A stretch of 64,000 nucleotides of DNA from Flavobacterium sp. NRK1 (GTDB lineage: Bacteria > Bacteroidota > Bacteroidia > Flavobacteriales > Flavobacteriaceae), in the NCBI RefSeq assembly GCF_024054175.1, contig NZ_JAMXLA010000001.1, positions 3,318,140-3,382,139 on the forward strand, written 5' to 3'. The notes below the pieces were generated by a model that had not been told where the DNA came from, searched no databases, and was given only the letters and a program-made list of their open reading frames with translations. Below, piece after piece: positions 22,412-24,162 of the stretch. Each line of letters starts with the position of its first letter. The first letter of the stretch is position 1. The translations under genes and the position numbers were made by a program.

Positions 22412-23497
22412 ATGGAACAGTTTATAGTATCAGCCAGAAAGTACCGACCGCAAACATTTAAGGATGTTGTTGGGCAACAAGCTATTACCAATACGCTGCT
22501 AAATGCCATAGAAAACAATCACCTGGCACAAGCTTTATTATTTACAGGTCCGCGCGGAGTAGGAAAAACTACTTGTGCACGAATATTAGCCCGAAAAATA
22601 AATCAGGAAGGTTATGATGACCCTTATGAAGATTTTGCATTTAATGTATTTGAACTGGATGCAGCTTCTAATAACTCAGTAGATGATATACGCAACCTTA
22701 TAGATCAGGTTCGCATACCTCCGCAAACAGGTAAATACAAGGTATATATTATTGATGAGGTACATATGCTCTCCCAGGCTGCATTTAATGCCTTTTTAAA
22801 AACACTTGAAGAGCCGCCAAGACACGCCATATTTATATTGGCAACCACAGAGAAGCATAAAATTATACCTACCATCTTATCAAGATGTCAGATATTTGAT
22901 TTTAAAAGAATCACCGTTAAAGATGCTAAAGAACATCTTGCAGAAGTTGCCACAAACCAGGGGATTACTTTTGAAGATGATGCATTGCATATTATAGCTC
23001 AAAAAGCTGATGGTGCAATGCGTGATGCCTTATCCATATTTGACAGGGTTGTTAGTTACTGCGGTAAGAATCTTACCCGTCAGGCCGTAACTGAAAACTT
23101 AAATGTACTTGATTACGAATATTACATAAATGTAACTAATCTTATTCTTGAAAACCGCATTCCTGAATTACTGCTGACGTACAATGAGATTTTAGCAAAA
23201 GGATTTGACGGGCATCATTTTATAGCAGGGCTTGCCTCTCATTTCCGCGATTTGCTTGTAAGTAAAAATCCTGCAACGCTAATTTTATTGGAAGCTGGTG
23301 AAATAGCTCAGAATTTATATGGTGAACAATCACAAAAAGCAAGTCAGGATTTTTTATTAAAAGCCATAGATATTGCCAATGATTGTGATTTGAAGTACAA
23401 ATCAAGTCAGAATCAAAGGCTGCTTGTAGAGCTATGCCTTATGCAGCTTGCCTCCATCACTTTTGATGGAGAAAAAAAAAAGCTGACCAATTTATAA
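22412..23497 (+). CDS. dnaX: DNA polymerase III gamma/tau, zero-frame product (gamma-like, 361 aa)
   Basis: Clamp-loader ATPase of the replicative polymerase. The N-terminal AAA+ module is complete: Walker A GPRGVGKTTCARI (about residues 46-58), a DAASNNSVDDIR segment, Walker B VYIIDEVHMLS, sensor 1 ATTEKHK and the SRC arginine-finger motif, followed by domain III helices. The usual zinc-binding Cys cluster after Walker A is missing. In the zero frame translation stops five codons after an A10 run, giving a gamma-length product. The tau C-terminus continues in the -1 frame, open without interruption to 24162. A -1 shift would give a 583-residue protein. The alternative is a sequencing or natural indel in the A run. 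Confidence 0.93.
   Translation: MEQFIVSARKYRPQTFKDVVGQQAITNTLLNAIENNHLAQALLFTGPRGVGKTTCARILARKINQEGYDDPYEDFAFNVFELDAASNNSVDDIRNLIDQVRIPPQTGKYKVYIIDEVHMLSQAAFNAFLKTLEEPPRHAIFILATTEKHKIIPTILSRCQIFDFKRITVKDAKEHLAEVATNQGITFEDDALHIIAQKADGAMRDALSIFDRVVSYCGKNLTRQAVTENLNVLDYEYYINVTNLILENRIPELLLTYNEILAKGFDGHHFIAGLASHFRDLLVSKNPATLILLEAGEIAQNLYGEQSQKASQDFLLKAIDIANDCDLKYKSSQNQRLLVELCLMQLASITFDGEKKKLTNL
23472..23482 (+). other. Slippery site A10-G in dnaX
   Basis: Ten A followed by G. In zero-frame codons it reads GAA AAA AAA AAG, so it contains the heptamer A AAA AAG used by E. coli dnaX for -1 frameshifting. The run length also suits RNA polymerase slippage, as in Thermus dnaX. GGAG just upstream (23468-23471) may be chance. 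Only a weak AT hairpin lies downstream. Confidence 0.7.
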
Positions 23498-24162
23498 TTC
23501 CTCCCCATTATTTTAAAAATAATCCCACAGTAGCAAAAACAAATGTTGCACCGGAGCAAACTGTTGCCCAAACTGAAAACACAGTTACCGTAACAGAAAG
23601 TAAATCTACGGTAATTACCCCGCTGCCTGCTGATAAACTTGAGGTAGATGAGCCGGAAATCATAAAACCTCCCGTAATTACAAAGGTTGATGATGATGGT
23701 AGTCCTAAAGTATCGGCTTTTTCACTGGCAGGTTTACGTCAAAAAAAAGAACTGCTGGAAAGTCAGAAGGCAATGGTAAGGCAGACTGATGAATTACCAA
23801 GAGAGCCTTTTAGTGAAACTGATATGCTGCTGCAGTGGAATAAGTTCGCGAAACGCCTTAGCGATTCCGGTCAGAAAATTATGGCTACCTATATGCAAAT
23901 TAATGATCCTGTACTTGAAGGAACAATCATTAAGCTGGAATTGCCTAACGAAGGATCTAAAGTAGATTTTGACAACGGAAAGCACGAATTATTAGGTTAT
24001 TTACGTGGTAAATTACATAATCACGACATTACTATTGAAGTAAACGTAAATGAAGTGGTTTCAACAAAACATGCCTTTACCCCTCTTGAAAAATTTGAAA
24101 AACTTAAAGCCATTAATCCTTCTGTTGAAACTTTAAGAAAAATGTTTGATCTGGACATTTAA
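23482..24162 (+). CDS. dnaX: DnaX tau-specific C-terminal part, reached by -1 frameshift
   Basis: An open frame of 226 codons in the -1 frame relative to the upstream dnaX, beginning exactly at the end of the A10 run. It starts ADQFIIPPHYFK, continues with a Thr/Val/Pro-rich linker (about 60 residues), then a folded C-terminal domain (LLQWNKFAKRLSDSGQKI to LRKMFDLDI). The domain has the look of the flavobacterial tau C-terminus that contacts the polymerase. The first internal ATG (23773) would give only 129 residues and lies past the linker, so independent initiation is unlikely. The sequence shows normal codon use and no decay, which argues that the region is translated. Confidence 0.82.
   Translation, partial: ADQFIIPPHYFKNNPTVAKTNVAPEQTVAQTENTVTVTESKSTVITPLPADKLEVDEPEIIKPPVITKVDDDGSPKVSAFSLAGLRQKKELLESQKAMVRQTDELPREPFSETDMLLQWNKFAKRLSDSGQKIMATYMQINDPVLEGTIIKLELPNEGSKVDFDNGKHELLGYLRGKLHNHDITIEVNVNEVVSTKHAFTPLEKFEKLKAINPSVETLRKMFDLDI

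Follow-up and report, generated by a model that had tools for sequence, protein, structure and literature searches.

Probable transcriptional slippage on a conserved run of ten A as the main source of two dnaX products in Flavobacterium

The dnaX gene of Flavobacterium sp. NRK1 is very probably a programmed two-product gene that works mainly by transcriptional slippage on a run of ten A (A10) at the junction of its gamma and tau parts, as judged from the sequence and its comparison with relatives. We also hold it likely, with somewhat less assurance, that dnaX of the Bacteroidia is an ancient, register-neutral slippage switch on 9–14 A. Selection would then maintain the run and the stop codons that close the two other frames, whereas the frame of tau would be free to change and would have done so many times. 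In the same proposal, a terminator-like hairpin would tune the product ratio in Flavobacteriaceae, and in members of a further family of the order the device would have given way to a ribosomal site of the E. coli kind, with its stem-loop downstream. The gene lies in a stretch of 64,000 nucleotides (the window) at 3,318,140–3,382,139 of contig 1 of a 3.63-Mb assembly. Its features, in window positions, are listed below.

22412–23497, + strand: zero frame of dnaX, encoding a gamma-like product of 361 residues with AAA+ domains I–III (open reading frame; NCBIfam PRK14971, E = 2.1e-187; TIGR02397, E = 2.6e-115).
23452–23471, + strand: predicted RNA hairpin CUCCAUCA-CUUU-UGAUGGAG, with an 8-bp stem and a 4-nt loop, its 3' arm ending directly at the A run (computed fold; conserved in the family).
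23472–23481, + strand: A10, the putative slippage run, with A_AAA_AAG in the -1 phase (at least nine A kept in 335 of 343 distinct loci).
23482–24162, + strand: C-terminal part of tau, 226 codons plus stop in the -1 frame (PRK14971 match, open frame and in-silico products).
23484–23486, + strand: TGA closing the third frame, which A9 or A12 transcripts would use, giving a gamma-like product of 357–358 residues (in-silico products).
23495–23497, + strand: zero-frame TAA that ends gamma and overlaps the tau-frame codons TTT ATA ATT (F-I-I) (sequence; codon test of the Ile).

The run is flanked by G on either side, and the zero-frame codons across it read GAA AAA AAA AAG CTG ACC AAT TTA TAA; beyond A10, the -1 frame runs on for 226 codons before the stop at 24160–24162. 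Both parts of the gene match one NCBIfam gamma/tau family, PRK14971, at positions 1–370 and 407–613 of 614 (E = 1.6e-22 for the -1-frame part), and neither the N-terminal nor the C-terminal part alone reaches the family's cut-off of 685 bits. The locus holds both the N-terminal AAA+ gamma/tau domains and the C-terminal extension of tau that mark a DnaX gamma/tau gene; a search of the tau tail against Pfam gave no match. The closest named loci are from Flavobacterium, with up to 94% identity over the N-terminal part. Within the genome itself, the family for gamma/tau domain III gave one match (E = 2.7e-4, under the family's cut-off), and a search with the N-terminal protein counted four matches, the other match listed having 32% identity and lying in a 427-residue open frame. 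Translated in silico, A11 and A8 mRNAs yield tau of 583 and 582 residues, and A9, A10 and A12 mRNAs yield products of 357, 361 and 358 residues, respectively. The preliminary description of this DNA had given a zero frame ending soon after A10 with a 361-residue gamma-like protein, a tau region open for 226 codons in the -1 frame and A_AAA_AAG in the correct phase within the run, and each of these readings is borne out. We also judge it right that tau needs a frame change at A10, that the zero and -1 frames play the opposite parts to those they have in E. coli, and that two products are to be expected.

The same description had named a homopolymer indel introduced during sequencing as the simplest alternative. 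A search of 101 genomes of the genus found the dnaX locus in 100; the tally was lowered from 101 because the best match in one assembly of 590 contigs (G031; E = 1.4e-13) is at the level of a paralogue. With three further distinct loci added, the genus set comprises 103 distinct loci, 102 of which span the site and one of which is cut by a contig end. The run is A10 or A11 in all 102 site-spanning loci, and tau lies in the -1 register in 95 of the 103, in the zero register in six and in a register that could not be called in two. A second set of 56 distinct named loci, many of them from separately sequenced strains and assigned to the genus by at least 87% identity, has tau in -1 in 53, in zero in two and in +1 in one. 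Since the state is common to relatives within the genus, that of the window is not an error, and the indel was rejected as an explanation. Homopolymers are error-prone and single odd lengths, such as A9 in one locus (L299), may well be errors; yet with the same state in 95 of 101 callable genus loci and 53 of 56 named loci, a sequencing or assembly indel, or a recent pseudogene, is refuted for the window and keeps a negligible probability overall.

The tau part itself has been preserved. It measures 209–269 codons across 94 genus loci, with a mean identity to the window of 49%, and differences per codon position 1, 2 and 3 amount to 0.38, 0.31 and 0.59 (0.15, 0.06 and 0.52 in the N-terminal part). 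Positions 1 and 2 change less than position 3, which is the pattern of a translated frame and speaks against a pseudogene. A long, conserved open frame of this kind would also suit a split gene, that is, gamma plus a separately initiated tau-tail protein. However, ATG, GTG or TTG occurs within 10 codons after the run in none of the 94 genus loci (median distance 76.5 codons), making a separate start for tau improbable, and an aromatic-Ile-Ile motif is conserved soon after the junction. A split gene is therefore as improbable as a pseudogene, and both were rejected on the shared state of the genus, the conservation of the tau part and the absence of nearby start codons.

Conservation of the run was followed over 343 loci, which are 363 minus exact duplicates; genomes were drawn evenly, one genome (G526) still occurs twice (L342 and L352), and named loci may be of the same species as others in the set. 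A run of at least nine A stands at the junction in 335 of the 343, from genus to class and in one locus elsewhere in the phylum, as A9 in 17, A10 in 295, A11 in 18, A12 in two, A13 in two and A14 in one. Set against these 335, only 14 runs of such length occur elsewhere in the same genes (~599 kb), 10 of them in the order-level set. Of the loci sampled at class level, 43 of 45 have the junction site, as do 32 of 37 at order level. The eight loci with shorter runs comprise one whose contig ends before the site (L087), five without a long run (L243, L327, L328, L331 and L359) and two with a ribosomal layout (L324 and L334). Outside the class, a junction run of at least nine A was found in 10 of 20 hand-picked loci (A9 or A10 in L401, L402, L408, L413–L416 and L418–L420), five of them with an interrupted zero frame, in addition to L364; the long run is absent from the other 10 of those 20.

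Several observations on single loci were made in the course of this survey. Two reduced genomes have lost the long run: L327 (contig of 344,793 bases) encodes a 345-residue zero-frame DnaX, in which a tau tail was looked for and none detected, and L328 has an uninterrupted gene with A7. In L087, L209, L222 and L326 the contig ends before or shortly after the dnaX junction, and a hairpin together with an A run might break assemblies. L299 (Flavobacterium sp. YO12) carries A9 with tau in +1, and L158 an in-frame A13; either may be real or an assembly error. Five metagenome bins titled Sphingobacterium, Chitinophaga, Rhizobium or Bdellovibrio (L249, L256, L266, L297 and L310) have a Flavobacterium-like dnaX with at least 88% identity and are probably mislabelled.

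The run is not tied to one reading frame. It occupies all three codon phases, in differing residue contexts, and over the 343 loci tau lies in the -1 register in 182, in zero in 149 and in +1 in six, with six unassigned; the profile used to assign registers was itself derived from 310 of these loci, and some single calls may rest on homopolymer errors in assemblies. A common form in other genera of the family is a zero-frame GAA AAA AAA AAT AGC through which tau continues, the -1 frame stopping at once at TAG. In the six genus loci with zero-frame tau, the -1 frame likewise closes, after three sense codons or fewer. Register changes were counted on a gene tree (FastTree, 329 loci) of the region upstream of the junction. 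A minimum of 28 switches between the zero and a shifted register is required, falling to 24, 18 and 11 when branches with support under 80, 90 and 95 are collapsed; these counts are rough, because the tree rests on one gene, interrupted genes are enriched in the sample and single assemblies may contain homopolymer errors. The family set consists of 29 best matches (28 outside the genus), 60 loci hand-picked among the matches listed and four further distinct ones. The 60 picks include 10 of the 13 interrupted genes listed outside the genus (L107 was already in the set and two are cut by contig ends), so that the register counts of the family over-represent interrupted genes; two further batches of 20 loci were also picked to include such genes. 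An alignment of relatives for run length and phase, proposed in the preliminary description, thus upholds the run (A10 or A11 in every site-spanning genus locus) and not a single phase or register. Close relatives with uninterrupted dnaX and no A run had been put forward there as counter-evidence; uninterrupted genes do occur (6 of 101 callable genus loci and 80 of 92 family loci), yet the A run is present in them.

Both non-tau frames stop after at most eight sense codons, counted from the first codon holding a non-A base, in 317 of 331 loci. In the 80 family loci with zero-frame tau, the tau+1 frame stops within this limit in all 80, against an expectation of 25% under synonymous shuffling of the downstream codons and 56% from other positions of the same genes. 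What makes this stop telling is that the tau+1 frame is out of reach of a -1 ribosomal shift. It arises at an Ile codon of the aromatic-Ile-Ile motif, which is ATA in 75 of the 80, with GTA or TTA (also giving TAA) in three; ATA makes up 26% of the remaining Ile codons in those genes. Closure of the other two frames is due partly to synonymous codon choice. Among genus loci with tau in -1, the tau-1 stop is found in 94 of 95 and says little, as 93% is already expected from the amino acids under the synonymous null; among order-level long-run loci with tau in -1, it falls within eight codons in only 7 of 12.

Programmed -1 ribosomal frameshifting at A_AAA_AAG, the E. coli mechanism with the roles reversed and ribosomes slipping into the tau frame, would yield the same two proteins, and as the explanation we consider it unlikely. 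It draws on the heptamer in the correct phase, on a G immediately following the run in 92 of the 95 genus loci that have tau in -1, and on GGAG directly 5' of the run in 84 of the same 95, which could act as a Shine–Dalgarno-like stimulator. The only tRNA-Lys found has anticodon UUU, with no CUU (ARAGORN over 41 tRNA matches, from 150 scored of 258 candidates). A sole tRNA-Lys with UUU is the condition that makes A_AAA_AAG slippery for E. coli ribosomes. Against a ribosomal shift, 66 of 80 family loci with zero-frame tau have T in place of G immediately after the run; in E. coli, according to a 2016 review (PMC5009743), AAG stands well ahead of AAC and AAA, and AAT is not listed in the part of it consulted. 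Runs of at least nine A are maintained though the heptamer needs seven bases, the six loci with tau in +1 are beyond the reach of a -1 shift, and the tau+1 stop persists in a frame that a -1 shift does not enter. Of the two elements of an E. coli-type site, the window has A_AAA_AAG and lacks the stable stem-loop a few bases downstream that L324 and L334 possess: the downstream fold reaches only -0.4 kcal/mol (z = 0.57). Mean z downstream is 0.08 in 50 of the 95 genus loci (control -0.30; z below -2 in two of 50 against four of 50 in the control) and -0.54 in 50 of the 80 family loci (control -0.25).

A general requirement for the -1 heptamer was rejected because the run occurs in all codon phases and tau in three registers. 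A_AAA_AAG, given earlier as the shift site, is present in phase and is probably not the operative feature, as at least nine A in any phase is what is conserved. As to the earlier view that ribosomal frameshifting and polymerase slippage were both possible, the evidence favours slippage, and the ribosome may have a share. Polymerase is favoured because at least nine A are kept in any phase, tau lies in three registers, stops close both other frames and the hairpin of the family is upstream, not downstream; the window has the Thermus-type arrangement, in which nine or more A at the junction are combined with early stops in both non-tau frames. According to Antonov et al. 2013 (PMC3711429), in the part available, ribosomal shifting goes with a conserved direction of shift, which slippage does not demand; among the dnaX relatives here the direction is not conserved. 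Joint action, with polymerase setting most of the ratio and ribosomes adding -1 shifting on the same run, overlaps with the slippage explanation and has a modest chance of being correct, better than that of a purely ribosomal shift. The points for each mechanism count towards it, and A10 holds A_AAA_AAA and A_AAA_AAG in tandem in the -1 phase; on the other side, no feature was found in long-run loci that requires a ribosomal part.

Directly 5' of the run, the window has the predicted hairpin listed above, placed as in the stem-loop-mediated slippage of Penno et al.; the fold of 23442–23471 reaches -10.8 kcal/mol (z = -2.81). The mean z of the 30 bases 5' of the run is -2.58 in 102 genus loci and -2.31 in 92 family loci, with z below -2 in 81 and 62 of them, respectively; stretches taken at random from the same genes give 9 and 4. 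Compared with synonymous versions of the same sequence, the fold is more stable at p ≤ 0.05 in 89 of 102 genus and 83 of 92 family loci (controls, 7 and 6). Codon choice in the hairpin is correspondingly skewed over 254 loci: ATC serves for 220 of 229 Ile (usage 17%), GCC for 207 of 225 Ala (usage 25%) and GGA for 228 of 239 Gly (usage 40%). Among 113 distinct hairpin sequences, 87% of cells are paired, against at most 84.5% in shuffles, and 23 cells are compensatory, against at most 11 in 500 shuffles. Slid controls have fewer paired cells (32–72% against 87%) and similar compensatory counts (9–24), which makes the synonymous test the stronger argument. These comparisons indicate that the hairpin of Flavobacteriaceae is under synonymous selection and is not a by-product of the encoded residues.

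Beyond the family, stems adjoin the run in 8 of 32 order-level and 9 of 43 class-level loci (random stretches, 4% and 6%), and only 3 of 32 and 5 of 43 pass the synonymous test (controls, 1 and 3). A general upstream hairpin, enriched over random stretches and hardly different from the synonymous-shuffle controls, was dropped, and because of this result the hairpin is claimed for Flavobacteriaceae only.

Two loci from two genera of one other family of the order (code f7), L324 and L334, have an E. coli-like layout. Both are without the long junction run, read CCA AAA AAG TAG and have tau in -1; a stem-loop starts five to six bases 3' of the heptamer, with a predicted stability of -26.5 kcal/mol (z = -5.55) in L324 and of -20.4 kcal/mol with a z of only -1.47 (15 of 200 shuffles as stable) in L334. 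By comparison, the 60 bases downstream in 331 long-run loci reach -15 kcal/mol or lower in 14 and -20 kcal/mol or lower in one. The site of L324 lies on the - strand at ~1200–1340, and this locus is listed at run length 8 because of an A8 run further downstream. The two loci would represent the E. coli-type ribosomal layout with reversed roles, an apparent switch from polymerase slippage to ribosomal frameshifting. Each mechanism seems to come with its own helper, upstream of the run for polymerase in Flavobacteriaceae and downstream for the ribosome in L324 and L334, which, as two loci, are few.

The frames, the differing registers and the conservation of run, stops and hairpin can be read directly from the sequences; from them we infer that slippage takes place on A10, that RNA polymerase and not the ribosome is the enzyme that slips, and that the hairpin has a part in setting the product ratio. 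RNA polymerase would slip on A10 and release mRNAs with varying numbers of A. Ordinary translation would then turn A11 (or A8) mRNAs into tau of 583 (or 582) residues, while A10, A9 and A12 mRNAs would terminate within about five codons and give gamma-like proteins of 357–361 residues. A nascent-RNA hairpin ending exactly where the run begins would probably stimulate slippage, as in stem-loop-mediated slippage. That process has features in common with intrinsic terminators. With all three registers being made, the register encoded in the DNA would matter little, and lineages could therefore swap gamma-encoded and tau-encoded states via indels near the run.

Should this mechanism hold, the site in 43 of 45 class and 32 of 37 order loci would make gamma production widespread in Bacteroidia and would argue that gamma is useful; a 2012 review (PMC3290774), in the part consulted, has most bacteria without dnaX frameshift signatures and possibly without gamma. 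The register swaps, with the apparent replacement of polymerase by ribosome in two loci, would be natural experiments on the evolution of recoding, and with the hairpin, stem-loop-assisted slippage would gain an example in a chromosomal housekeeping gene. As regards annotation, a gene caller restricted to a single frame would be expected to miss tau in most Flavobacterium. A search of the open-access literature returned no report of a dnaX hairpin, of class-wide conservation, of register swapping with both frames closed or of the apparent ribosomal switch in the f7 family; in endosymbionts, the consulted part of PMC3971599 only lists dnaX as present or absent.

The reversed-role, two-ORF type of dnaX is already in print. 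Antonov et al. 2013 (PMC3711429) described, in the part available, 17 genes in which tau is reached via a -1 shift, nine of them with 10 A, and proposed polymerase slippage. The window shares the two ORFs, with gamma in the zero frame, tau in -1 and A10 at the junction. The species named there for this type are three Chlorobi (Chloroherpeton and two Chlorobium), and Flavobacterium may be among the nine A10 genes; the same part of the paper has no mention of an upstream hairpin, register swapping or conserved stops in both frames. That one nucleotide can reverse the roles is stated, with dnaX as the example, in PMC5009743. The experimental precedent is dnaX of Thermus thermophilus, where slippage on A9 produces mRNAs of several run lengths (PMC1088944, PMC5009743). 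It resembles the present gene, considered here from sequence alone, in the A run at the gamma/tau junction and in the stops near the run that give gamma in the other frames; it differs in that the DNA encodes tau in the zero frame, where the window encodes gamma, and in that a hairpin, which the window has, goes unmentioned in the consulted parts of both sources. In the Roseiflexus IS630 element (Penno et al. 2015, cited in the consulted part of PMC5009743), stem-loop-mediated slippage involves a 6-bp stem with a 4-nt loop directly 5' of the slip run; the window has its stem in the same place, with 8 bp and 4 nt. The element has T5C5 as its run, and no slippage can be detected in it without the context features, whereas A10 may slip unaided and the stem would act to tune this slippage. 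With E. coli dnaX the window shares A_AAA_AAG and the encoding of gamma and tau in one gene (PMC5009743, PMC3711429, as far as consulted), but E. coli encodes tau in the zero frame and uses a downstream stem-loop as stimulator, and in the window the roles are reversed and the hairpin stands upstream, with no stable stem downstream.
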